64,000 nucleotides of DNA from the NCBI GenBank assembly GCA_946811185.2, contig OX328102.1, positions 48,585,619 to 48,649,618 of the forward strand, read 5' to 3'. The position numbers were made by a program, and so were the translations under genes. Origin of the DNA: Hippopus hippopus (lineage: Eukaryota > Mollusca > Bivalvia > Cardiida > Cardiidae). The stretch's first letter is position 1. Each line of letters opens with the position of its first letter. The notes under the pieces are model-generated. The model was given only the letters and a program-made list of their open reading frames with translations, was not told the origin of the DNA and did no database searches. This document shows positions 20,396 to 54,326 of this stretch, in pieces.

Positions 20396-20647
20396 TTATA
20401 GTCTGTTGCATTTTCTCGCAGCCGTTCATAATCGAAATCTAATATTAAAAGGGAAAGTTGACATACGGAAACGTGTATGATTTCACTATTCCATAGCGTT
20501 GTATAATTAAACACTAGCGCTCTCGAAGTTATAATGACCTATTTCTTCCCCTTGACTCAATCATTTCAAAAGTGGTCTGCAGCAAGATGCAAATAGGCTC
20601 CACTCCAGGCTACATTATTTTTTTTTTTGCTTTATCACTGATTTCAG

Positions 20648-21249
20648 GTGGTCTTGTAGGTCTTACATGCTCCCTTGCCACGATGTTTATAGGTGCCACG
20701 ATGTATGAAGGCGGACTCACAAGGTTCTTTATCAACACTGTACAAGATTACGTTCTTCTTGCTGCAATGCTAAGTGGCTGTCTAACCAGCGGACTGATAA
20801 CTGTAATTGTATCACTGTGCACCCATAATATAAGGACCAAAGCCGACGAAGACAGAGAATGGGCAAAAACTTTCAATATAGATAACCCAATTAATCCCTT
20901 TCGTCTGGTTTATCAGGAAGAATTAGAAGAAATAGGTGCCACAACGGGTATTATCACCGCTAAAACAATGGAAATGATCTTCGCGAAGGCGAAACGAGTA
21001 GCCATCATAGGAGGAGGAGCCAGCCTCGTTTTCTTTCTTGTCATACTTCCGGTTGTCGTTTTGAATATCGGAGTTCTAAGCATTAAACAATTTACAGTTA
21101 TGATTCGATTATTTCAGTACTGCTGCTTTTTCGACACAGTGGTTGTGGTTATAGTTCCCCCTATCGAGGAGGGATACCAGATATGGCGGCGCTATAAGGA
21201 AAATAAAAGTCCCGAGCCTGTCTCAACTATTGGCCTGATATCTTTATAA
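20648..21249 (+). CDS. DUR3-like: DUR3-like symporter, last exon (C-terminus)
   Basis: Acceptor ACTGATTTCAG; the first two bases complete a Gly codon, and the frame continues 199 more codons to TAA at 21247-21249. Membrane segments: GLVGLTCSLATMFIGATM, DYVLLAAMLSGCLTSGLITV, then IIGGGASLVFFLVILPVVVL and a final segment ending VVVVIVPPIEEGYQIWRR. Between them lies a charged stretch with WAKTFNIDNPINPFRLVYQE, the typical DUR3 IDNPLNPW-like motif after the transport core. The tail YKENKSPEPVSTIGLISL is cytoplasmic by prediction. The stretch 20572-20647 is open but intronic. Confidence 0.9.
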
Positions 21250-21397: not shown

Positions 21398-21406
21398 CTA
21401 CTAATA
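21398..21406. repeat. Target-site duplication, left copy
   Basis: CTACTAATA directly precedes the terminal GGGTGTGTGAAG. The same nine bases follow the element's other end at 36862-36870. Confidence 0.88.
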
Positions 21407-21551
21407 GGGTGTGTGAAGTTGGCAGTAAGTTCGATAATCGGAGTTCGATATTCAATATCGAAATGAATATGCGGATGAGTTGAATTTCCTGCTGCAGTAA
21501 ATTCGCTTTTTTTTCCAAACTCAAGGGATAGTTACGAAAGTTAATGAATCA
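21407..21551 (+). repeat. Unique outer terminus, left arm
   Basis: Non-tandem cap of the element, matching 36717-36861 in reverse with very few differences (for example TTCCTGCTGCAG here against TTCATGCCGCAG). It includes ATATTCAATATCGAAATGAA, which already resembles the 89-bp unit, so the array may have grown from the cap. Confidence 0.85.
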
Positions 21552-24500
21552 TGATTTGAATATCAAAATAAATTTCATGCTAGCAGCAGATTCGCGGTTT
21601 TTTATGTATGAGCATAAGGATGTTGTATGAAATCGAATGTCGATTTGAATATTGAAATGAATTTCATGCCAGCAGCAGATTCGCGTTTTTTTATGTATGG
21701 GCATAAGGATGGTGTATGAAATCGAATGTCGATTTGAATATCGAAATGAATATCATGCCAGCAGCAGATTCGCGTTTTTTCCTGTATGGGCATATGGATG
21801 GTGTATGAAATGGAATGTCGATTTGAATATCGAAATGAATTTCATGCCAGTAGCAGATTCGCGTTTTTTTATGTATGGGCATATGGATGGTGTATGACAT
21901 CGAATGTCAATTTGAATATCGAAATGAATATCATTCCAGCAGCAGATTCGCGTTTTTTTTCTGTACGGGCATATGGATGGTGTATGACATCGAATGTCGA
22001 TTTGAATATCGAACTGAATTTCATGCCGGCAGCAGATTCGCGTTTTTTTATGTATGGGCACAAGGATGGTGTATAAAATCGAATGTCGATTTGAATATCG
22101 AAATGAATATCATGGCAGCAGCAGATTCGCGCTTTGTCTTGTATGGGCATCAGGTTGATGTATGAAATCGAATGTCGATTTGAATATCGAAATGAATATC
22201 ATGCTAGCAGCAGATTCGCGTTTTTTCCTGTATGGGCATAAGGATGGTGTATGAAAGCGAATGTCGATTTGAATATCGAAATGAATATCATGCCACCAGC
22301 AGATTCGCGTTTTTTCCTCAATAGGCATATGGATGGTGTGGGAAATCGAATGTCGTTTTGAATATTGAAACGAATATCATGCCAGCAGCAGATTCGCGTT
22401 TTTTCCTGTATGGGCATATGGATGGTGTATGAAATCGAATATCGATTTCAATATCGAAATCAATATCATGCCAGCATCGGATTCGCGTTTTTTCCTGTAT
22501 GGGCATCAGGTTGGTGTATGAAATGGAATGTCGATTTGAATATCGAAATGAATATCATGCTAGCAGCAAATTCGCATTTTTTCATGTATGGGCATAAGGA
22601 TGGTGTATGAAACCGAATGTCGATTTGAATATCGAAATGAATATCATGCCAGCAGCAGATTCGCGTTTTTTTTTTTTGTATGGGCATATGGATGGTGTAT
22701 GACATCGAATGTCGATTTGAATATCGAAATGAATATCATGCCAGCAGCAGATTCGCGTTTTTTTCTGTATGGGCATATGGATGGTGTATGAAGTCCAATG
22801 TCGATTTGAATATCGAAATGAATATCATGCCAGCAGCAGATTCGCGTTTTTTTATGTATGGACATATATAGGTTGTATAAAATGGAATGTCGATTTGAAT
22901 ATCGAAATGAATATCATGCCAGCAGCAGATTCGCGTTTTTTTCTGTACGGGCATATGGATGGTGTATGACATCGAATGTCGATTTGAATATCGAAATGAA
23001 TTTCATGCCTGCAGCAGATTCGCGTTTTTTTATGTACGGCCATAAGGATGATGTATAAAATCGAATGTCGATTGGAATATCGAAATGAATATCATGCCAG
23101 CAGCACATTCGCTTTTTTTTCTGTATGGGCATATGGATGGTGTATGCAATCGAATGTCGATTTGAATATCGAAATGAATTTCATGCCAGCAGAAGATTCG
23201 CGTTTTTTCCTGTATGGGCATATGGATGGTGTATGAAACCGAATGTCGATTTGAATATCGAAATGAATATCATGCCAGCAGCAGATTCGCGTTTTTTCCT
23301 GTATAGGCATAAGGATGGTGTATGACATCGAATGTCGATTTGAATATCGAAATGAATATCATGCCAGCAGCAGATTCGCGTTTTTTTATGTATGGGCATA
23401 AGGATGGTGTATGAAGTCGAATGTCGATTTGAATATCGAAATCAAGATCATGCTTGTAGCAGATTCGCGTTTTTTTATGTATGGCATAAGGATTGTGTAT
23501 GAAATGGAATGTCGATTTGAATATCGAAATGAATATCATGCCAGCAGCAGATTCGCGTTTTTTATGTTTTGGCATAAGTATGGTGTATGAAATCGTATGT
23601 CGATTTGAATATCGAAATGAATTTCATGCCAGCAGCAGATTCGCCTGTTTTAATGTATAGGCATATGCATGTTGTATGAAATCGAATGTCGATTTGAATA
23701 TCGAAATGAATATCATGCAGCAGCAGATTCGCGTTTTTTCCTTTATGGGCAGCAGGTTGGCGTATGAAATCGAATATCGATTTGAATATCGAAATGAATT
23801 TCCTGCCAGCAGCAAATTCGCATTTTTTCCTGTATGGGCATATGCATGGTGTATGAAATCAAATGTCGATTTGAATATCTAAATGAATATCATGCCAGCA
23901 GCAAATTCGCCTGTTTTAATGTATAGGCATATGCATGGTGTATGAAATCGAATGCCGATTTGAATATCGAAATCAATATCATGCCAGCAGCAGATTCGCA
24001 TCTTTTCTATGTATAGGCATCAGGATGGTATATGAAATCGAATGTCGATTTGAATATCGAAATGAATTTTGATGCTAGCAATAGATTCGCGTTTTTTTAT
24101 GTATGGGCATAAGGATGGTGTATGAAATGGAATGTCGATTTGAATATCGAAATTAATATCATGCCAGCAGCAGATTCGCGTTTTTTTATGTATGGCATAA
24201 GGATGTTGTATGAAACCGAATGTAGATTTGAAAGTCGAAATGAATATCATGCCAGCAGCAGATTCACCTGTTTTTATGTATGAGCATATCGATGGTGTGT
24301 GAAATCGAATTTGAAATCGAATACCGAAATGAATATCATGCCAGCAGCAGATTCGCGTATTTTTATGTAGGGGCATACGCAGGATATGTGAAAATTTAAT
24401 GTCGGTTTGAATATCGAACTGAATTTCATGCTAGCAGCAGATTCCCGTATTTTCATGTGTTGGCATTTCTTTTGTATATGAAATCAAATGTAGATTTGAA

Positions 24501-24812
24501 AATCGAACTGAATTTCACGCTAGCAGCACATTCGTTTAAATTTCTGTACTAGCATAACGACTGTGTATGTTATCGAATGTAGGGTTGAATATCGAACTGA
24601 ATTTCATGCTAGCAGCAGAATCGCTAAAATTTCTTTACTAGCAATAGATGATGCATGACATCGAATGTAGGTATGACTATCGAACTGAAATTCATGCTAG
24701 CAGCAAATTTGCTAAAATATATGTACGGGCATAAAGACTGTGCATGCAATATAAAGTAGATTTGAATAAGGAACCGATTTTCATGCTAGCAGCATGGTCG
24801 AGGAAAAGCGGC
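21552..24812 (+). repeat. 89-bp tandem array, left arm (~36 units)
   Basis: Unit reads, in pieces: CGAATGTCGATTTGAATATC, GAAATGAATATCATGCCAGC, AGCAGATTCGCGTTTTTT, CCTGTATGGGCATATGGATG, GTGTATGAAAT. Units are highly alike from about 21600 to 24200, then diverge steadily: GCTAGCAGCA and TTCGTTTAAATTT replace GCCAGCAGCA and TTCGCGTTTTTT by 24500. Because 89 is not a multiple of three, every open frame across it changes meaning at each unit; none is a gene. There are no spacers, so it is not a CRISPR array. Confidence 0.93.
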
Positions 24813-24825
24813 ATTGCATAAAATG

Positions 24826-24826
24826 T

Positions 24827-24873
<47 letters not shown>
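24826..24873. repeat. (TC)n microsatellite at the inner edge of the left arm
   Basis: About 48 bp of TC, immediately inside the last degenerate 89-bp unit. Confidence 0.92.
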
Positions 24874-24877
<4 letters not shown>

Positions 24878-25394
24878 CGCATCTGTTCTGTTCGGTTATA
24901 AAATTTTAACAGTATAAATTGCTAACAATTGTAAAAAAGAATTAGTCGACAAAAAAAAAAAGAAAACACGATTTCAGAACTGACACTTTGCATTTATAAG
25001 AACTAAAATTAACTCATGTTTGAACTTCCTCCATACTTATCAATGGTGATTGTCACTTGTGTGATTCTTAGTTCAGTCAAATTCTTTCCAAGGAATGATT
25101 GATGTTATTGCGACAATATTCATTGATTGCTCACTACGTTGTTTCGCACGTATTTATTTAAAAATAGCCAGGAGCTTTGAAGAAATGTGGTGCAAAATTA
25201 AATTACAAGCTGCAAGCAAGCATCGATATGTGCACTGGCCGATTCAATGCAAGTAACATACTTTTTGTCGCGGCGTGGGCTTTTTTGGCCCTTCTATCGC
25301 AAAACTTAACTTAGTAAGCGTCGCTAACGAGTATTTTTTACTGTTTACATACACTATTTTATAGACTTCTGTTTCAGTACTTCACAGTATCACT
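24874..25394. other. Element interior, nothing recognised
   Basis: AT-rich sequence with no exon-like peptide on either strand. Confidence 0.45.
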
Positions 25395-25482
25395 TTTGAT
25401 CGTTATATATGCAACCAATATGACCTTCGCTGTCCACGGGCCGTTAAATCCCATTCATTCATTCATTCATTCATTCATTCAC
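25395..25482 (+). repeat. Retroposon 3' tail with (ATTC)n
   Basis: GACCTTCGCTGTCCACGGGC, CGTTAAATCCC, then seven to eight ATTC units. A GTTAAA plus simple repeat ending is typical of SINE/RTE-like tails in molluscs (recalled). Confidence 0.55.
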
Positions 25483-25887
25483 TTGTAATGGCATAAAAAA
25501 GAAAAGAAAACATCAAACAAAATCATTCCCCTTTTTTTTGATTAGAGAAATTATAACTTTTCAAGTCTAGTTATGCAAATCAGTTCTAGCTCATAAACAA
25601 AAAATAAGGAACTCTGTAGCAATTATTTTTTATTAATTTAAGAAGATGTCTGCGGTGAATGTGGATTCGAATTCTAAATTGCTGGACAAAATCAGGTAAA
25701 TGAAATTAGAAACAAAGTAACTGTGGATTACAGTATAAGGTAACCTTCCGGGAAAATATGCTACACCATATTAAACACATCATAATAACTCAAAAATGAA
25801 TAACTGCAACGATAAACATGTTCCACATTTAAAAACACCAACACTGGATAAAAGACAATGGACAAAAGATGAATGAAAACAAAAGAA

Positions 25888-27428
25888 AAGAGGGCCATAA
25901 TGGCATCGAAGTCGCTCACCTAGCATTTTGACCATACATGACCCATTTCCAATCTCTTCCGAGACAAACAGTCTGACAATTTTTTATTAGTTAGGGACTG
26001 TTGTCTACACAAGCGTTTTCTAGAATTTGTCTCAATGACCTAATTTAAAGCTCAACTTTGTTTTTTTAAAACTTGTAGAAATTATCCAGAGAAACATTCT
26101 GACCACCTCTTATGAGTATTTGAGAGAAATATGGCCCGTAGAGTGTACACAATTTTTTTTTCGAGATTGACCAGGTAACCTAGTTTTTTAACCCAACATG
26201 ACGCCTTTTCAAACTCGTCTAGGTTATCATCAAGGCAAACATTCTGACCAAATTTCAAGATTACCGGACTGAAAATGAGGCCTCTTGAGCCTACACAAGG
26301 TTTTCAAAGATTAAAACTGGTTACCTATTTTTTGACCCAATGTGACTAATATCAAACTCATTCAAGATATCATCAAGACAAATTTCCAAACCAATTTTCA
26401 AGAGTATTGTACCGAAAGCGTACACAATGTTTTTCAAAGATTTGACGTAGTGACTTAGTTTTTGACCCGACATAACCTATTTTCAAAGTTGTCAAAGATA
26501 TTACAAAGACAAACATTTTGACCATTTTTCAAGACTATTCTACAGAAAATGTGGCCTACAGAGTGTATTTTTTTTTAATGAAATTTGACCTAGTGACCTA
26601 GTTTTTGACCCAACGTGACCAATTTTCAAGCTCGTCCAAGATATCACCAAGACAAAGATCCTAACCAACTTTCATTTGTTATGGTCTGAAAATATGCCCT
26701 CTGTTGATCAAAGATTTGACGTAGTGACCTAGTTTCTGACTCAATATAATCCATTTTCGAACTTGTCAAAGATATTATGAAGAAAACATTCTGACAAATT
26801 TTTCAGAGAATTCTATAGAAAATGTGGCCTATGTATGGAGTGAACAAAGGGTTTTTCAAGATTTGACCTGGGTACCTTTTTTGGCCCGATGTGACCCTTT
26901 TCGAACTCGTCCGAGATACCATCAAGACGCACAAGTGTTAGTGACATTCTTTTTGTCCGAGATATCATTGAGACAGACATTCTTAACATTTACAATGAGT
27001 ATCAGACTGAAAATGTGGCCTCTACAGTGCACACAAAGTTTTTCTAAGATTGGGCGGAGTGATCTATCTTTTGACTGTTATTGACCCAATTTCAAACTCG
27101 TCCGAGATACCAACAAAACCAACATTCTGATAAGGTAAAAAGAGTATCAGACTGAAAATGAGACCTCTAGAGTACGGTATAGTGTAATCAAGGTTTTTCG
27201 AAGTTTTGCACCAGTGACCTACTTTTCTTCCCAACATGATCTAATTTTGAAATTGTCCGAGATATTGTCAAGACAAGCATTCGTATTAAGTTTCATGAGT
27301 ATAGTACTGAAAATGTTGCTTCTAGACTGCACACAAGGAAACTTTTGACACGTAGGCGACGCTCGACAGACGACGGACAGAGCACGATCACATAAGGTCA
27401 TATTGAGCAGTTCGTGCTCATAGAGCTA
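25888..27428 (+). mobile_element. GCTCACCTGAG-class repeat, copy 1
   Basis: Begins AGAGGGCCATAATGGCATCG and GTCGCTCACCTAGC; ends AGTTCGTGCTCATAGAGCTA, which is roughly its inverted counterpart. The body is a ladder of ~140-180 bp diverged repeats, each with GTGACCTAGTTTTTGACCC, CAAACTCGTCCGAGATATC and CAAGACAAACATTCTGACCA. Non-coding; stop codons occur in all frames of each rung. Confidence 0.7.
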
Positions 27429-27628
27429 AAAATAATGATAATAATGAAACATTAAAATGGCATCCATTGCTAACTACTTTGAACGAATATAATGATTTCT
27501 CTCGCTGATATTGCTGGCTGAAAAGCAGACAGTAACTTTCCAACTTAAAGACGGAGTTCATGGAAATAAAAGGAAATTGTAAAGGCAATGAGTTTTGCAA
27601 AAGTCATGTTTTCTAATTTTTACTCCCC

Positions 27629-27849
27629 TTAACTCTTTACCAGTCAGCAAAGTTTTATACTGGCCCAAATTCAAATTATTTGACGACATAAATCAACGGT
27701 GGCCCAACTGACGAAATATGACCTTGATAGGGTAGAAAAGATTGTGGTGAAGGAGAAAATGCAGATTACCACCATTTTCTCCTTTTCCCACAATATTTTC
27801 AAAAAGCTTTCTTCCTCAGGGTCATTGTGATTGTGTTGTAAAGGGTTAA
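27629..27849 (-). mobile_element. Family D palindromic MITE
   Basis: Opens with ACTCTTTACCAGTCAGCAAA and closes with GTTGTAAAGGGTTAA. Core stem AAGGAGAAAATG..CATTTTCTCCTT, with loop CAGATTACCAC less symmetric than usual. Confidence 0.7.
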
Positions 27850-28133
27850 CTCTTCGAGTGCTGAATAACCCAGAGGTCAGTCTAGGAATTATAGCAATAT
27901 ACATGTAATTTCACGGTTGATTTTGATCAGATTGCAGGTCTGGCTTTTCTGATCTTGATCTACACTAGCCGCAAAGTAATCTACAGCTGTGAGAGGCACT
28001 CTAAGGGTTCTAGGACCATTATTGTATTGTAACTTGTAAAAATCAGAGAAATCAGAGAGATGTTAGTGCTGAATTGCTTCCTTAAACTGAACCTGAAACG
28101 GTCCCAATTTTTACTGAGAATGTCTCTCTCATT
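27850..28133. other. Element interior with a family C remnant
   Basis: TCAGATTGCAGGTCTGGC and TTGATCTACACTAGCCGCAA at 27928-27975 are the mirrored core of family C; the rest is unassigned. Confidence 0.4.
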
Positions 28134-28396
28134 TGAACCATGTCCTGGACAAAGGCGACTTAATGCAGCTGCAAAAAGTATCAACCGGTGTTAGCCCACA
28201 CAGTCTGCGCAGGTTGAAATGTGTTGGAACCGTTTGCAATTGGTAAATTTCCTGCATGACAAAGGACCATTCTATCTCCAGATCCAGTCATTTGTTAGAC
28301 ACGGTGTATTTTATAGGTCCATAATTATATGACAACTTGCTTGGTATTATGCATCACAGAAATGCATCAAGCCCCCTTATGGCAGAACTCAGCTCC
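28134..28396 (+). mobile_element. Family A MITE
   Basis: Full length but diverged, core GTTAGCCCACACAGTCTGCGCAGG no longer forms a good stem. Confidence 0.65.
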
Positions 28397-28644
28397 TTTA
28401 TGGTAATTCTGTGAGAAAAGCCCGTTCTGTAAAGTAAATGAATGAATATAGAAAATAAAACAAGTGTGACCAAACAATATATAAACTGACCAATACTTTA
28501 ACAGCAGAATGAAGTACCAGTTACCTTCAGTACAACAATAAGTTAAAATAAAGATAACCAAACTGCTAATAAGAAATAAACAGGAGAAAAGTTCCATTAC
28601 CGAAAGTAAAAAAAGACATGAGTACGACTACAAATAAAGCATAA

Positions 28645-30374
28645 ACAAGAGGGCCAAGATGGCCCTGGATCGCTCACCTGAACTTTCGAGAGGACCATAG
28701 CCAATTTTTTTTGAACTATTGAAATTTTGGAAACAAATCATTATTTTACCAAGCAATTTTGAAAACATCACCTGTAAAAATCATTTCAAAATCTGTCACC
28801 ACCCCTACAATCATCACCAAAGCCATGTTTTTGACGAATGAGAATTCTGCAAATAAATTTTGGGATAGGTCACCCAAGGACCGTTTCTTGAACAAGAGCA
28901 CATGCCCGGTAGTGGCTAAAAATATTAAGTCGAACAAGAGCACCGTATGCGGGTACGAACGATTTGCTGTTGGGTACTGGATAATAAGTTAAAATTCTAA
29001 CTCGAAAAAGGGGCATAATTTGGACAAAATGATTTTAGAGTTATCTGTTCGTGTTGTATGGGTTGCTCTTTTACTAGTGAACAATTATTCCAAGCTTCAA
29101 GTACATGTGTTGAGTGGAAGCCGAGATATAACAAACTGTCAAAGTTTTTGCACAGCGACAACGACAACAACGCAGACGACGACAACAGGGCTATGAGAAT
29201 ACCTCGATTTTTTCTTAAAAAAACAGCCGATCTAAAAAAGGGGCATAATATAAGGATAATTTCTGTGAAATTATTTCAAAATCTGAACAGTGGTTTCAGA
29301 GAAGAAGAATATTTAAGAATTTCTTCATGTCCGTATAGTGCAAATAGCCCCCCCCCCAGCCATGTTTCTTGACGGATCAAAATTTCGCGCAAATTTTTCA
29401 AAAGGGGCACCCAAGGAACATATCTGTGAAATTATTTCAAAATCTGAGGAGTGGTTTAAGAGAAGAAGAATTTCAAAGAATTTCTTAAAGTCCATACAGT
29501 GCAGAGAGCCATTCCCCCACGGCCATGTTTTTTGACGGATCAAAATTTCGTGAACAATTTTTGAAAAGGGTTACCCAAGGAACATTCTGTGAAATTATTT
29601 CAAAATCTGACCAGCGGTTTCAACAGAGAAGATTTTTTAAGAATTTCTTAGAAAATTCCATTTGGTTGCCATTGCAACCAGAGTTTTTGATCGAATCAAA
29701 TTCTGTGAACAATTTTAAAGAGGACTTCCCGAGGAATATTCCAGCCAAGTTTGGCCTAAATTGGCCCAGCGGTTAAGGAGGAAAAAATGTTTAAAGAATT
29801 GTTTACACCGCACGACCCACTGCAAATAGCCCCCCATCACCACAGCAATGTTTCTTGACGGATCAAAATTTCGCGAACAAGTTTTCATAAGGAACACCCA
29901 AGGAACATTTCTGTGAGAATATTCAAAATCTGATGAGTGGTTTAAGAGAAGAAGAATTTCAAAGAATTTCTTTAAGTCCATACAGTGCAAAGAGCCCCCT
30001 TCCCCCACGGCCATGTTTTTCGACGGATCAAAATTTCGCGATCAAGATTTGAAAAGGGTCACCCAAAGAACATTTCTGTGAAATTATTTCAAAATCTGAC
30101 CAGCGGTTTCATCAGAGAAAATTTTTAAAGAATTTCTTATAAAATTCCATTTGGTTGCCATAGCAACCAGAGTTTTTGATGGAATCAAATTCTGTGAACA
30201 AATGTTATAGAAGACTTCCGAAGGAACATTCCAGCCAAGTTTGGTCCAAATTTGCCAAGCGGTTTAGGAGAAGATGTATAAAGAATTGTTGACGCCTCAC
30301 GACGGACGACGCACGACGGACCCAACGTGATCCTAAAAGCTACCCTTGAGCACGTTCTGCTCAGGTGAGCTAAA
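28645..30374 (+). mobile_element. GCTCACCTGAG-class repeat, copy 2, with a nested element
   Basis: Left end AGAGGGCCAAGATGGCCCTG and GATCGCTCACCTGAAC; right end CGTTCTGCTCAGGTGAGCTA. The body differs from copy 1: rungs contain TTTCTTGACGGATCAAAATT, TCGCGAACAA, AAGGAACATTTCTGTGAAAT and GGTTGCCATAGCAACCAGAG. Related rungs recur at 56560-56720. Several 65-104 codon frames are by-products. Confidence 0.7.
28893..29238 (+). mobile_element. Nested AACAAGAGCACCG-type repeat
   Basis: Starts AACAAGAGCACATGCCCGGT (and again AACAAGAGCACCGTATGCGG at 28934) and ends CTCGATTTTTTCTTAAAAAA, CAGCCGATCTAAAAAA. Homologous to 50463-50772, whose end reads CTCGACTTTTTCTTCG, AAAAAAGCCGAGCTAAAAA. It interrupts copy 2. 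Confidence 0.6.
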
Positions 30375-30376
30375 AA

Positions 30377-31628
30377 ACAAGAGGGTAATCGGCCCTAAAG
30401 CGCTCACCTGAGTAAAGTCGTGTAGGATTGATAAAGCTGAAGAAATCCTGGTCGTGAGAATGTAAAACGCATGAATGTAAGTGACCTATTTTTTGACCGA
30501 CTTTACCTATTTTTGAACTTGCCAGAGATATCATCAATACCAACATTCTGACAATGTTTTATAAGTATCAGACTGAAAATATGGTCTTTAGAGTGCACAC
30601 AAGGTTTTACCTAAGATTTCGATGAGTCACTTACTTTATCAGCCAAGGTAACCTAATATGGAATTCATCTGATATATCAGCAAGACAAACATTCTGACAA
30701 AGTTTCATGAGTACCAGGCTCCAAACAAGGGTTTCTCTAAGATTTGTTCCAATGACCTACATTTCAATCCGATATGACCCCATTCCAAACTTGTCCAAGA
30801 TATCATCAAGACAATGATTTATAGTGAGTTACATGATTTTAGGACTAAAAATGTGGCCTAAAGAGAGCAAAAAAGTTTGGTGTTTTTTTTTTTTGGGAGG
30901 GGGGGGGAGGGGATTTGGTCAGTAATCTACTTTTTTTACCCGATGTGATCCTCTTGGGAGTGCACAAAAGATTTGGCTCTCTGACGTACTTTTTGATCCA
31001 AGTTGAACTAATTTCATACTTGGCATAAGTTTTATCAAGACAAGCATTTTGACCAAGTTTAATAAGTATCTGGCTGGAAATGTTGTCTTAAGAATGCACA
31101 CAAGGTTTTTCTAACATTTGAACGAGTCACGTAGTTTTTGACCAGAAGTAACCCAATTTCACAGTTGCCCGAGATATCATGATCAAGACAAACATTCAAT
31201 AATGGTCCATGAGTTAAGGGCTGAAATGTGGCGTTCAGAGTGCACACAAGATTGTTCTTAAATTTATTAAACTGACCTCTTTTTCGACTTGGTGTTTCCT
31301 GATTTCAAATTGGTCCGAGATATCACCAAGACAAAAATTCTGACCAAGATTCATCAGTCTAAGGCAAAATATATGGCCTGTATGGTGCAAACAAGGTTTT
31401 TTACAAGATTTTGCCCAGTGACCTACTTTTTGACCTAATTCGACCCAATTTCGAACAAGTTCGAATTTTTATCAAGACAAAGATTCTAATTAAATTTCAT
31501 GAGTATTTGGCTGAAATTGTGGCCTTTAGAGTGCACACAAGGTAAATGTTTCACGAAGATGACACACGACGGACACAGCACGATCACAAAAGCTGACCTT
31601 GAGCACTTTGTGTTCAGTTGAGCTACAA
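30377..31628 (+). mobile_element. GCTCACCTGAG-class repeat, copy 3
   Basis: Directly follows copy 2, start AGAGGGTAATCGGCCCTAAA and GCGCTCACCTGAGT, end CACTTTGTGTTCAGTTGAGC. The rungs are of the copy 1 kind, with a GT9-GGGAGGGGGGGGGAGG tract at 30882-30912. Confidence 0.68.
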
Positions 31629-31691
31629 ATGGTTTACTTTTGAATGCCACAGTATTCACTAAAATGTAAACATTAGTGCCTACACATACAA

Positions 31692-31955
31692 ATGAGCCAT
31701 GCTATGAAAAGGAGGCTTAATGCATCTGCGAAAAGTATCGACTCAGGTCAGCCTGTGCAGTCAGCGCAGGCTGACCTTGGCCGAAACTTTTCGCTATCGG
31801 CCAATTTCCTGTACGTCCAAGAACCACTTCTTCCTCAAGATTCAGTCATTCACTAGACTAAGTGGATTTTATGCATCCCTTATTATGTGATGACTTGCTT
31901 GGTACAATGGATCACGGACATGCATTAAGCCCCCTTTTGCCAGAGCACGGCTCAA
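31692..31955 (+). mobile_element. Family A MITE
   Basis: Well preserved; core GGTCAGCCTGTGCAGTCAGCGCAGGCTGACC has lost one stem pair. Ends CCCCCTTTTGCCAGAGCACG. Confidence 0.78.
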
Positions 31956-32209
31956 TTAATTCTTATTTGTTATTTCTTAAATAACAAACACTGACATTTG
32001 ATGATCACCGTAGCTTACCACAGCGACTTGTGCTAAGGTTAGCTTACAACGCCAAAGTGCACTTTCAAATCGAAAATGAATACACCAGCAGTGATTTAAG
32101 GTAGCAAAGATATTAATTTTTTCAATTAGGAATCCTAATTTGGTGTTGAAAGTCCATCGTTCAAATAAATGGGAAACTTAGATCATCCACGGAATAGCAG
32201 AAGTAACAC

Positions 32210-32561
32210 TCACAGCGGTGATGGTAATCTACCAACTTCACAGAATAATGCGTGGCATGGGAACCAAGTGTCCACATCGGATGGAATTCTGTCCAGGTTA
32301 CCCTTAAGACCGTCGTACCAAATATTTCCAAACTTTTTCGAAGTAACAATAGCAGTAAAATGCTCATTTCTGAACATTGTTACTCCGCCCAAGGCATATT
32401 TAGCTGTACCAACAGTAACTTCTTGCTTTGAAAGTATACCATTGAGGGAAATACGACTGTACAAGAAATGTTCATAAACACGAACCGCTAGAATAGGCGA
32501 TTTTGTCACTATATTCCTTTCTGTTCGCCTCAATCCGGAACATGGTAAGACAGTCATTGTC
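32210..32561 (-). CDS. Cysteine-protease-like exon inside the 15.5-kb element (C-terminal part)
   Basis: On the minus strand an acceptor (ATTTATTTCAG) opens an exon of about 117 codons ending at TGA (32210-32212). It reads from SPILAVRVYEHFLYSRISL through AKYALGGVTMFRN to EHFTAIVTSKK and GNIWYDGLKG. The order (hydrophobic strand, small loop, Y.L.GV strand, H-aromatic-T-A, then W-aromatic-D) resembles the His/Asp half of C19-type ubiquitin peptidases (GHYTAYV..W..FDD), and similar proteases are carried by some eukaryotic DNA transposons. The Cys-bearing N-terminal half is not visible upstream, where a family D copy sits. It may be a cargo gene remnant or an older host fragment. The sense-strand frame at 32169 is a shadow. 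Function is inferred from pattern only. Confidence 0.42.
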
Positions 32562-32587
32562 CTGAAATAAATGTAGTTTTGCATTTA

Positions 32588-32770
32588 GCTCTTTACCTGA
32601 CAGTGAAAAAACGACGAGGAAGCATTTTCAGACGCCAAATAAAGCTTTCATTAATGGAGGATTGTTTTTGAAAGGTTAGAAACATTGTGAGAAAGTAGAA
32701 ATGCTCATTTTCTCCTTTTCTACAGTGTTATCACAATCTATTTCCCTCCAGTTCGCTAAACAATGAAATG
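32588..32770 (-). mobile_element. Family D MITE, partial
   Basis: GCTCTTTACCTGACAGTG at left, stem AACATTGTGAGAAAGTAGAA / TTTTCTCCTTTTCTACAGTG, then lost. It lies just upstream of the protease-like exon on the minus strand and may have displaced the preceding exon. Confidence 0.55.
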
Positions 32771-33177
32771 GCTTGGAAAAGTATATGGAAGAATCAGGTT
32801 TCATAAGTAAATCGTATTTCTTGTACTAGCTCGTCTGCATTTTCGAGGATTTGACAATCCGTAAAAAGTGCTGTTGAAAATATGCCCATTAAATATTTGA
32901 ACGTTAATGGCTTAATAGATGTGTAATATACAACCACGAAATCTCTGTTGAAACAACAGCAAATTTTCTAAAAAAGATTTGTGGTGATCAATTTTCTTAT
33001 TTCATTGTGTTGATGTCTTAATTTTTGTTGCAATAACCAAAAGTCATTCAGGGACTAATTACATATGCGATTTCTCAGACAGAATACTGAATGCTTGACA
33101 TCCGACATTTTAGATAAAATTAAAAACAGATAACATTTCAAAATCTGCAGCAAAAATAAGACAAACTCCACAAACCA
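32771..33177. other. Element interior, nothing recognised
   Basis: No exon-like peptide. The last 40 bp (AAAATCTGCAGCAAAAATAA) may be a decayed piece of the 89-bp unit. Confidence 0.4.
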
Positions 33178-36100
33178 TATGCCCATACAGAAAAAAACGC
33201 GAATCTGCTGCTGGCATGATATTCATTTCGGTATTCAAATCGACATTCGATTTCATACACCATCCGTATGCCTATACAGGAAAAAACGCGAATCTGCTGC
33301 TGACATGATATTCATTTCGATATTCAAATCGACATTCGGTTTCATACACCATCCTTATGCTCATACAAGAAAAAATCCGAATTTGCTGCTAGCATGATAT
33401 TCATTTTGATATTCAAATCGACATTCCATTTCATACACCAACCTGATGCCCATACAGGAAAAAACGCGACTCTACTGCTGGTATGAAATTCATTCCGATA
33501 TTCAAATCGACATTCGATGTCATACACCATCCATATGCCCATACAGGAAAAAACGCGAATCTGCTGCTGGCATGAAATTCATTTCGATATTCAAATCGAC
33601 ATTCGATTTCATACACCATCGAAATGCCTATACAGAAAAAAAACGCGAATCTGCTGGTGGCATGATATTCATTTCGATATTCAAATTCACATTCGACTTC
33701 ATACACCATCCTTATGCCCATACAGAAAAAAACGCGAATCTGCTACTGGCATGAAATTCATTTCGATATTCCAATCGACATTCGATTTCATACACCATCC
33801 ATATGCCCATAGGTAAAAAAACGCGAATCTGCTGCTGGCATGATATTCATTTCGATATTCAAATCGACATTCCATTTCATACACCATCCTTATGCCCATA
33901 CATAAAAAAACGCGAAGCTGCTGCTGGCATGAAATTCATTTCGATATTCAAATCGACATTCGATTTCAGACACCAACCATATGCCCATACATAAAAAAAC
34001 GCGAATCTGCTGCTGGCATGAAATTCATTTCGATATTCAAATCGACATTCGATTTCAGACACCAACCATATGCCTATACAGAAAAAAAACGCGAATCTGC
34101 TGCTGGCATGATATTCATTTCGATATTCAAATTCACATTCGACTTCATACACCATCCTTATGCCCATACAGAAAAAAACGCGAATCTGCTACTGGCATGA
34201 AATTCATTTCGATATTCCAATCGACATTCGATTTCATACACCATCCATATGCCCATAGGTAAAAAAACGCGAATCTGCTGCTGGCATGATATTCATTTCG
34301 ATATTCAAATCGACATTCAACTTCATACACCATCCTTATGCCCATACATAAAAAAACGCGAATCTGCTGCTGGCATGAAATTCATTTCGATATTCAAATC
34401 GACATTCGATTTCAGACACCAACCATATGCCCATACATAAAAAAACGCGAATCTGCTGCTGGCATGAAATTTATTTCGATATTCAAATCGACATTCGATT
34501 TCAGACACCAACCATATGCCCATACAGAAAAAAACGCGAATCTTCTGCTGGCATGAAATTCATTTCGATATTCAAATCGACATTCGATTTCATACACCAA
34601 CCATATACCCATACAGAAAAAAACGCGAATCTGCTGCTGGCACGATATTCATTTCGATATTCAAATCGACATTCAATTTCATACACCATCCATATGCCTA
34701 TACAGGAAAAAACGCGAATCTGCTGCTGGCATGAAATTCATTTCGATATTCAAATCGACATTCGGTTTCATACACCATCCTTATGCCCATACATGAAAAA
34801 ATGCGAATTTGCTGCTAGCATGATATTCTTTTCGATATTCAAATCGACATTCCATTTCATACACCAACCTGATGCACATAAAGCAAAAAACGGGAATCTG
34901 CTGCTGGCATGATATTAATTTCGATATTCAAATCGACATTCCATTTCATACACCATCCTTATGCCCATACATAAAAAAAACGCGAATCTGCTGCTGGCAT
35001 GAAATTCATTTCGATATTCAAATCGACATTCGATTTCATACACCAACCATATGCCCATACAAGAAAAAACGCGAATCTGCTGCTGCCATGATACCCATTT
35101 CGATATTCAAATCGACATTCGATTTCATACACCATCCATATGCCAATACAGAAAAAAACGCGAATCTGCTGCTGGCATGATATTCATTTCGATATTCAAA
35201 TCGACATTCGATTTCATACACCATCCATATGCCCATACAAGAAAAAACGCGAATCTGCTGCTGGCATGATATTCATTTCGATATTCAAATTGACATTCGA
35301 TTTCATACACCATCCTTATGCCCATACATAAAAAAACGCGAATCTCCTGCTGGCATGAAATTCATTTCGATATTCAAATCGACATTCCATTTCATACAGC
35401 ATCCATATGCCCATACATAAAAAAACGCGAATCTGCTGCTGGCATGAAATTCATTTCGATATTCAAATCGACATTCGATTTCATACACCATCCTTATGCC
35501 CATACAAAAAAAAACGCGAATCTGCCGCTGGCATGAAATTCATTTCGATATTCAAATCGACATTCCATTTCATACACCATCCATATGCCCATACATAAAA
35601 AAACGCGAATCTGCTGCTGGCATGATATTCATTTCCATATTCAAATCGACATTCGACTTCATGCACCATCCTTATGCCCATACAAAAAAAAAAGCGAATC
35701 TGCTGCTAGCATGAAATTCATTTCGATATTCAAATCGACATTCGATTTGAGACACCAACCATATGCCCTTACAGAAAAAAACGCGAATCTCTGCTGGCAT
35801 AATATTGATTTTGATATTCAAATCGACATTCCATTTCATACACCATCCATATGCCTATACAGGAAAAAACGCGAATCTACTGCTAGCATGATATTCATTT
35901 CGATATTCAAATCGAGTATCGGTTTCATACACCATCCTTATGCCCATACATGAAAAAATGCGAATTTGGTGCTAGCATGATATTGATTTCGATATTCAAA
36001 TCGACATTCGATTTCATACACTAACGTGATGTACATAAAGGAAAAAACGCGAATCTGCTGCTGGCATGATACTCATTTCGATATTCAAATCGACATTCGA

Positions 36101-36716
36101 TTTCATACACCATCCATATGCCAATACAGGAAAAAACGCGAATCTGCTGCTGGCATGATATTCATTTCGATATTCAAATCGACATTCGGTTTCATACACC
36201 ATCCTTATGCCCATACATGAAAAAATGCGAATTTGCTGCTAGCATGATATTCATTTCGATATTCAAATCGACATTCCATTTCATACACCAACCTGATGCA
36301 CATGAAGGAAAAAACGCGAATCTGCTGCTGGCATGATATTAATTTCGATATTCAAATCGACATTCCATTTCATACACCATCCTTATGCCCATACATAAAA
36401 AAAACGCGAATCTGCTGCTGGCATGAAATTCATTTCGATATTCCAATCGACATTCGATTTCATACACCATCCATATGCCCATACAAGAAAAAACGCGAAT
36501 CTGCTGCTGGCATGTTATTCATTTCGATATTCAAATCGACATTCGATTTCATAGACCATCCTTATGGCCGTACGTAAAAAAACTCGAATCTCCTGCTGGC
36601 ATGAAATTCATTTCGATATTCAAATCGACATTCGATTTCATACAACATCCTTATGCCCATACATAAAAAAACGCTAATCTGCTGCTAGCATGAAATTCAT
36701 TTCGATATTCAAATCG
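33178..36716 (-). repeat. 89-bp tandem array, right arm (~40 units)
   Basis: Mirror image of the left array: ATTTCGATATTCAAATCGAC, ATTCGATTTCATACACCATC, CATATGCCCATACAG, AAAAAAACGCGAATCTGCTG, CTGGCATGAAATTC. Some multi-unit blocks are repeated: the run holding ATTCAAATTCACATTCGACT followed by ATTCCAATCGACATTCGA and CCCATAGGTAAAAAAACG is present at 33625-33840 and again at 34071-34286, 446 bp or five units apart. Overlapping frames of 62-161 codons arise from the periodic sequence and are not genes. Confidence 0.93.
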
Positions 36717-36861
36717 GGATTCATTAATTTTCGTAACTATCCCTTGAGTTTGGAAAAAAAAGCGAATTTACTGCGGCATGAAATTCAACTCATCCGCATA
36801 TTCATTTCGATATTGAATATCGAACTCCGATTATCGAACTTACTGCCAACTTCACACACCC
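36717..36861 (-). repeat. Unique outer terminus, right arm
   Basis: Inverted match to 21407-21551; last bases CAACTTCACACACCC mirror GGGTGTGTGAAGTTG. Confidence 0.85.
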
Positions 36862-36870
36862 CTACTAATA
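36862..36870. repeat. Target-site duplication, right copy
   Basis: CTACTAATA, identical to 21398-21406. Confidence 0.88.
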
Positions 36871-53607: not shown

Positions 53608-54137
53608 AGCCCCCTTCACACCAAACTAGATCTTATAACGTCTTACCCTGTCCTGACATAATTGGAAAACGGGTTGCGGTCTGGGTAGAACGCGTAAATT
53701 TGGCCTGATAATGCCTGAAGCCCCTGTCTCACAAAACCTGTTCTTAGAAATATTTACCCCGGACAAAATAATCGTAAAACGGGTTGCGGTCGGGATAGGA
53801 CGTGTAATTTCTGTCGGTAAAATGCATGCTCCCTGCCAATTGATGCCCGACGGCACCGCCTCTCTATTAGGATCGAAGTACGGCAGTTCCGTTTGTAGTA
53901 CATCCATCTCGTTTTAAGTACGTTGTCACTCCGTCGAATTACAGGACGGGATGGACGGCAAAAAATTTTGAGCAGGCTCAAAGTTCTGGAGCACCCTTCC
54001 CGTCCTAACCCGTCCATTAAGTTCATAAACAGGTCGTAAAAGGTTGCTTATACGTCCACTCCGTCCGATCACAGTTTAAGTCCGTTTGGCAACAATTTTC
54101 GGTACGGAGTGAGAACGAGTTTGGTGTGACAGGGGTA
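53608..54137. mobile_element. ~530-bp TIR element (CACACCAAACT ends)
   Basis: Left end CCCCCTTCACACCAAACTAG, right end GAGTTTGGTGTGACAGGGG. Inside, a left-end-like unit is repeated: CCCTGTCTCACAAAACCTG at 53719, with AAAACGGGTTGCGGTC(T/G)GG at both 53668 and 53776. The right half has mirror elements GACGGGATGGACGGCAAA and CCCGTCCTAACCCGTCC. Three frames of 68-93 codons cross it; none resembles a transposase, so it is likely non-autonomous. Confidence 0.7.
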
Positions 54138-54139
54138 TT

Positions 54140-54326
54140 AATAAATGAAATGAAACTTTCAAGCCGATATTAAAAACCTAAACGTTCTAAGTTACTTTTT
54201 GGAGAAAAAATTCTCCGTATCGGACAGTGTAAATCCGAGATTAGACTGCACGTTCTGTGCAGTCTGATCTTGATCTACACTGTCCACAACTGGTCTTTGA
54301 TTCGCGCTTAGCAGCCTTACGGTTAA
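54140..54326 (+). mobile_element. Family C MITE
   Basis: ATTCTCCGTATCGGACAGTG, hairpin AGATTAGACTGCACG..GTGCAGTCTGATCTTGAT, end GCTTAGCAGCCTTACGGTTA. Confidence 0.75.

Follow-up and report, generated by a model that had tools for sequence, protein, structure and literature searches.

A family of large foldback-type elements with 89-bp satellite arms in the bivalve Hippopus hippopus

The Foldback (FB) elements of Drosophila have 9-bp duplications and carry repeats in or near their inverted ends. Comparable architectures have been described for Tetris of Drosophila virilis, of which free satellite arrays are reported in the accessible part of PMC4079207, and for Tm1, a Mutator/Foldback family of root-knot nematodes. 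The portion of PMC3169594 available on Tm1 gives 8-10-bp (mostly 9-bp) duplications for 45 of 53 complete elements and includes, next to members that resemble miniature inverted-repeat transposable elements, members encoding the transposase of a Phantom-type Mutator-like element (MULE). Here we describe an element with mirrored satellite arms, and the family to which it belongs, from a 64,000-nucleotide stretch of the genome of the bivalve Hippopus hippopus (contig OX328102.1 of assembly GCA_946811185.2, positions 48,585,619 to 48,649,618, forward strand). This whole stretch is referred to as the window.

It is highly probable that the element is a non-autonomous DNA transposon of foldback architecture. 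This reading is based on its termini, its target-site duplications (TSDs), the corresponding empty sites and the arms that are shared between copies; the transposase acting in trans would most likely be that of a MULE, and growth of the arms and replacement of the core would have shaped the family. The element would move by cut and paste, the transposase binding to its ends. A foldback-type transposon had also been proposed in the initial annotation of this DNA, and the facing termini, the 9-bp TSDs and the paralogous empty sites described below support that proposal.

Termini, target-site duplications and empty sites

The element occupies 15,455 bp of the window (21407-36861), and CTACTAATA stands on either side of it as an exact 9-bp repeat; of all lengths between 1 and 14 bases, only 9 gave agreement between the two flanks. 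Both ends begin with GGGTGTGTGAAG. Their initial 82 bp are identical, and an alignment of the two ends has 220 matches over 230 positions by our count. Tandem Repeats Finder (TRF) detected a period of 89 on both sides, with 34.5 copies at 21553-24624 and 39.8 copies at 33175-36716, while wrap-around alignment gave 39 and 42 units when the partial units at the ends are included (Table 1). The units are arranged head-to-tail within each array and the arrays mirror each other, forming arms of 3.4 and 3.7 kb around an interior of about 8.4 kb. Long inverted ends that consist mostly of tandem repeats are a structural mark of the foldback class. The initial annotation had given a perfect 9-bp TSD, near-identical inverted outer segments of about 145 bp, mirrored arms of about 36 and 40 units and an interior of 8.3 kb, all of which hold up with small adjustments. 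An Rfam scan of the window returned no match.

Assembly is prone to errors in long tandem arrays, and a single array placed twice in opposite orientation could give a similar picture. We find this hardly credible. That one array gave rise to both arms is at odds with the differences between the arms in the number and the sequence of their units, and with the facing arrays that recur in other copies; moreover, a second copy with the same core type (type B, see below), 15,145 bp long, has a TSD of its own, and empty sites exist.

The assembly that contains the window (1.068 Gb in 34 contigs) was searched with the 23-base terminus, allowing at most two mismatches. This gave 157 forward and 154 reverse matches, 311 in total, whereas the reversed pattern used as a control gave none in either orientation. 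Coordinates were listed for the first 100 of these termini, all on contigs C1 to C5, and about 200 others are without coordinates (C-numbers denote contigs and L-numbers the sequence regions compared). Among the 100 listed termini, 64 form 32 facing pairs less than 30 kb apart and no pair occurs in another orientation; random placement would give 0.26 facing pairs. One pair spans 115 bp and the other 31 span 7.8-26.3 kb. The median size of the 32 pairs is 12.7 kb, and six are longer than the copy in the window. The initial annotation had foreseen inverted pairs of termini 5-20 kb apart, and the orientation is as foreseen in every listed pair. Its description of the element as unusually large is appropriate for the family, in view of the median, but not for the window copy as an extreme.

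When the left end was used as a DNA query, the best 40 of 324 candidates, which were scored, had identities of 94-100%, and the array was present in all 20 regions fetched inward from scored termini. As a rough estimate the family accounts for about 2 Mb of the genome (0.2%), calculated as half of the 311 termini at 12.7 kb each, not all termini being paired. No exact match of the terminus was found in viral contigs. The 115-bp copy, C3:65016741, has hardly anything besides its two ends, lacks the arms and is flanked by the perfect duplication ATAACCATC. Because it combines bare ends with a perfect duplication, nothing beyond the ends may be needed for movement, unless the copy had arms when it inserted and lost them later.

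TSDs were sought in 34 copies, namely the 32 listed pairs, the window copy and the complete copy L014. They were found in 33: exact over 9 bp in 25, with one mismatch in seven, and exact over 8 bp in one. Since none of 1122 mis-paired flanks reached one mismatch or fewer, chance is excluded. Such precise insertion with a duplication of constant length is as in the foldback class, and the expectation of the initial annotation that each copy would have a different 9-bp duplication was largely borne out.

For the analysis of empty sites, the two flanks of a copy were joined with one duplication and aligned to other sequence of the genome. The joined flanks align across the junction in 13 of the 34 copies, for C3:23867762 only to its own flank. 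Four high-identity junction alignments were inspected and represent uninterrupted sites (Table 1), in all of which the 9-base target is single; two of the four have it exactly, the other two with one mismatch. These are related sites within repeats, paralogous and not alleles. Empty sites had been anticipated in the initial annotation, and they were found in the paralogous but not in the allelic form.

Satellite arms and differing cores

The outer ~146 bp of the element already hold a diverged 89-bp unit that has 9 inserted bases and agrees with the consensus at 64 of its 89 positions on the left and at 66 on the right. Homology to the unit starts at element base 34 in 23 of the 24 arms that were aligned; for the remaining one, the second arm of L009 (L009_2), the program gave the inner segment only. 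Because the terminus itself is a diverged unit, the 89-bp satellite would stem from subterminal sequence that was duplicated in tandem.

A different origin would be the capture of a pre-existing satellite, or the insertion of two elements around ordinary DNA, in which case the arms would lie outside the transposing unit. Transposons can pick up satellite arrays. Such an origin is nevertheless very improbable, as all 20 fetched termini lead directly into the array, the homology to the unit starts at the same base in nearly every arm, a single TSD brackets the whole 15.5 kb, the arms are in register between copies, and none of the copies that were read has the termini and a core with unrelated sequence replacing the arms.

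In the left arm of the window copy the identity of the last five full units drops stepwise from 84% to 72%. The same decay at the inner end was found in L009, L011 and L013, which have a type-B core, and in L012, L015, L016, L018, L026 and L027, which have a type-A core; the right arm of the window copy has no comparable inner decay. When the left arm of the window copy is compared with three type-B copies, the register is unshifted over the outer 2-8 and the inner 8-16 units, and the number of units varies in the middle of the arm (37 full units in the window vs 51, 28 and 34). The left arms of the four type-B copies range from 2.6 to 4.6 kb. The array would grow and shrink in mid-arm, by unequal exchange or slippage, whereas units at the edge would escape homogenisation and decay; with growth in the middle and edges that escape homogenisation, decayed edge units are to be expected.

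In a comparison of ten arms, from which units with less than 85% identity to the consensus had been removed beforehand, unit identity was 0.88-0.92 within an arm and likewise 0.88-0.92 between arms of different copies. Because these values are alike, most of the unit diversity appears to have existed before the copies spread, the arrays having been carried along and later changed in number. The family clearly shows a transposon carrying satellite DNA, and probably also one that made it grow.

One could speculate that the arms are the means of the element's success, although we regard this as a rather doubtful possibility. The motif TTCGATATT, one of five strings tried, is a candidate for transposase binding; its density per kb is 22.5 in the left terminus (2 copies) and 8.6-9.9 in the arms, with 0 for the core and 0.02 outside. 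With a candidate binding motif in each unit, growth of the array would recruit more transposase. If true, elements of mostly 10-16 kb could transpose to roughly 100-150 copies at a size beyond that where DNA transposition is said to weaken, and the element would be a satellite factory, selected for array length. A size mark of 7 kb, from 2004, is cited in the accessible text of PMC6431247.

The interiors fall into different types. The type-A core measures ~2.2 kb; nine such cores, compared pairwise with gaps excluded, are 96-99% identical, and further copies were found. The type-B core of the window copy (8.4 kb) is present in L009, L011, L013, L072 and L074 at about 93-97% identity, and a 2.4-kb portion of it in L028. 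The 4.3-kb interior of L014 matches neither core A nor core B, and L020 contains a 486-bp segment common to type-A copies, its rest being unmatched. A variable interior between common ends, as in the foldback class, is thus seen in cores A and B, the L014 interior and the 115-bp copy. The alignments of five type-A copies to the left arm of the window copy break off at base 24789-24791, whereas those of three type-B copies continue. Because the type-A alignments end at one breakpoint where the type-B alignments go on, the alignments place the exchange of the core at the inner edge of the arm. The replacement would occur by template switching during gap repair, or by recombination, and would have yielded at least two amplified subfamilies, A with the ~2.2-kb core and B with the 8.4-kb core of the window copy.

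The centres of five long copies contain core A in two cases, core B in two, and a Maverick/Polinton-like gene set in C4:63450534. Within this 26.3-kb copy, L071 (C4:63459700-63466700) has genes for a Pox_A32-like ATPase and for a double jelly roll-like domain, and a Maverick/Polinton-like element is apparently nested in the foldback copy. Core A contains another dispersed repeat, since some 500 bp elsewhere in the window (53639-54140) match part of it at 87% identity. Three internally repetitive stretches lie in the interior of the window copy, at about 25880-27435, 28645-30375 and 30378-31630 (boundaries by eye), and are common to other type-B copies. They start near GAGGGCC or GAGGGTA and GCTCACCT, end near a GAGCAC...GTGCTC-like hairpin before GAGCTA, and have relatives at 55.6-56.0 kb of the window.

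Table 1. Features of the foldback element in the window and empty sites of other copies
Feature	Position in window	Strand	Alignment	Basis
Left TSD copy CTACTAATA	21398-21406			Flank comparison
Left terminus, starts GGGTGTGTGAAG, unit-like sequence from its base 34	21407-21552	+		Alignment of both ends
Left arm, 39 x 89-bp units (partial ends included), inner units decayed	21440-24794	+		TRF and wrap-around alignment
Interior, core type B, ~93-97% to other copies	24795-33168			Comparison between copies
124-aa open frame, possibly captured exon	32210-32584	-		Open reading frame, borders by eye
Right arm, 42 x 89-bp units, mirrored (partial ends included)	33169-36828	-		TRF and wrap-around alignment
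Right terminus, inverted copy of left terminus	36716-36861	-		Alignment of both ends
Right TSD copy CTACTAATA	36862-36870			Flank comparison
Empty site of C1:11521944			260 bp, no gap, 88%	
Empty site L047/L048			86%, 41 bp on one side	
Empty site L081/L082			87%	
Empty site L039/L040			91%, 31 bp on one side	

Candidate transposases and the 124-aa frame

The transposase supplied in trans would most likely belong to the MULE superfamily, in its Phantom/Rehavkus/FB-related part. The duplications lie in the 8-11-bp range given for MULEs in the accessible text of PMC6446971, and 117 matches to the MULE domain were found in the genome (150 of 160 candidates scored), most of them without a stop in the domain. 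The alternative is a transposase of the Merlin (IS1595-like) superfamily. According to the accessible part of PMC8101967, Merlin ends begin with GG, the duplications are 8 or 9 bp long and families can hold tandem repeats; the foldback family begins with GGG and has 9-bp duplications (8 bp in one of 34), which agrees with that description as well. However, in contrast to the 117 MULE matches, only four matches to the Merlin domain (DDE_Tnp_IS1595) were obtained (six candidates scored), none spanning the full 153-position model and two with an internal stop. They are located on C13, C14 and C17, and their positions are uninformative because these contigs have no listed terminus pairs. We consider a Merlin source unlikely, and a MULE is the better guess.

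Several observations weigh against a foldback transposon mobilised by a MULE. No transposase was recognised in any of the interiors that were read, within the frames scanned. Known element spans contain none of the 117 MULE matches (119 termini compared), a position test that is weak in both directions because only 49 of the 117 lie on stretches with listed termini. Thirty-six of the 100 listed termini have no partner bearing an intact 23-mer within 30 kb, and the paired copy C3:48914503 has no TSD. Finally, L076, a 2,848-bp MULE of the same genome, is excluded as a helper by termini that differ from those of the foldback family, and its exact 9-bp duplication ATTTCACAC, 7 bp outside each inverted repeat, comes from a scan of 200 x 200 positions in which ~0.15 exact 9-base matches are expected by chance.

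The open frames of L020, L014 and core A (six proteins) gave no Pfam match above the cut-off. The initial annotation had suggested looking for a related copy encoding a MuDR/FB-type transposase; the interiors that were read yielded none, so that membership of the Mutator/FB superfamily is something we infer.

L076 codes for a protein of 515 aa, with a FLYWCH domain (46.3 bits) and a MULE domain (37.9 bits), between inverted ends of ~196 bp that are built of short tandem repeats. It points to the presence, in the same genome, of MULEs that combine tandem-repeat ends with 9-bp duplications. A further MULE, L077 (C2:34811500-34815500), has a 432-aa frame and inverted flanks of short degenerate tandem repeats, which suggests that foldback-like ends are not rare among the MULEs of this genome. 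L076 to L078, representing three MULE families, were rejected as partners, as they do not carry the foldback terminus at up to two mismatches in its first 12 bases. Two MULE genes are found just outside foldback elements, C4:5464308 at ~1.4 kb and C3:8750643 at ~2.6 kb. They are different genes that point away from the foldback ends, the one on C3 with a FLYWCH domain, and since the two stretches share only 68 bp (BLAST) beyond the foldback end they are read as neighbours and not as the autonomous partner. The chance expectation for cases of this kind is 0.08, so that the elements may have a preference for inserting close to other MULEs.

The 124-aa frame in the interior of the window copy is preceded by an acceptor-like TTTATTTCAG and followed by a donor-like GTAGAT, as identified by eye. 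It has no match in Pfam, the protein database (four candidates, none with E <=0.01) or PDB. Its eight matches in the genome (ten candidates scored) all lie within type-B sequence: six in known type-B copies, including the one in the window, and two, C15:6694311 and C3:62712543, with 300-bp flanks that align to type B. The frame is open and ungapped in all eight copies and diverges by 1.3%, compared with 1.5% and 2.0% in the flanks, with five silent and 12 replacing changes vs 254 and 808 possible ones. The lower divergence could hint at constraint, but the silent and replacing counts are close to neutral and give no clear sign of it. Given this pattern and the lack of a database match, the frame was for now rejected as a protein of the element. 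It may possibly represent a captured exon; a parent gene, as looked for in Pack-type elements, was not found, all eight genome matches being in type-B sequence. Its residues NEHFTAIV may resemble the histidine box of ubiquitin-specific proteases.

On the forward strand of the window, a DUR3-like (urea transporter) gene has its last open frame at 20518-21249. This gene has seven protein matches, of which the only named one is from Mya arenaria (53%), in support of a mollusc host. The element was inserted ~160 bp past the end of this frame, perhaps in the 3' untranslated region.

Comparison with known foldback systems

How satellite DNA is born and spreads is an old question, and here one genome offers dozens of insertions of one array. 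The founder-like unit at the terminus, the decayed inner units and the variable counts in the middle could make the growth of an array traceable step by step. In addition, mirror arms of several kilobases would be likely sites of inversion and deletion. No molluscan foldback family was found in literature titles, most subscription papers being outside reach; the word "foldback" is absent from the bivalve repeat papers PMC8905726 and PMC10294476, and appears in PMC8268682 only within the reference list.

Among the described systems, Galileo of the P superfamily has foldback-like inverted ends, and in one of its subfamilies the tandem repeats expand and contract, unequally at the two ends, as those of the present family would. 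It differs in its 7-bp duplications, its P-type transposase and its inverted ends of up to about 1.26 kb (accessible part of PMC3573991). Rehavkus shares the 9-bp TSD and the presence of a minisatellite (PMC6446971, as far as accessible). Neither an FB nor a Rehavkus transposase was found here, and the likeness to both is one of description and not of sequence comparison. The inverted ends of Tm1 are composite and vary in the number of their tandem repeats, but the unit is only ~14 bp and a transposase-encoding form is known (PMC3169594, in the portion available). Outside the inverted repeat, the Tm1 ends have asymmetric motifs of 7 bp; seven bases of L076 are likewise unmatched in this place, whereas the present family has none.

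The likeness to Tetris extends further. The accessible sections of PMC4079207 describe an apparently non-autonomous element with inverted ends that hold a variable number of tandem repeats (TIR-220), with 8-10-bp duplications, with a non-coding middle of variable size and with no autonomous copy found, all of which applies to the present family too. Moreover, the terminal domain of Tetris has a 37-bp stretch in common with its repeat unit. The two differ in scale: Tetris has a unit of ~220 bp, inverted ends of up to 1,735 bp and three structurally complete copies, compared with a unit of 89 bp, the longer arms of the window copy and the 32 pairs among the first 100 of 311 termini. The family of H. 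hippopus is a new and unusually large one of the known foldback kind, set apart from the others by their descriptions and closest to Tetris of Drosophila; since its arms reach 3.4 and 3.7 kb, against 1,735 bp in Tetris and ~1.26 kb in Galileo, it is in its size that this new member is remarkable.

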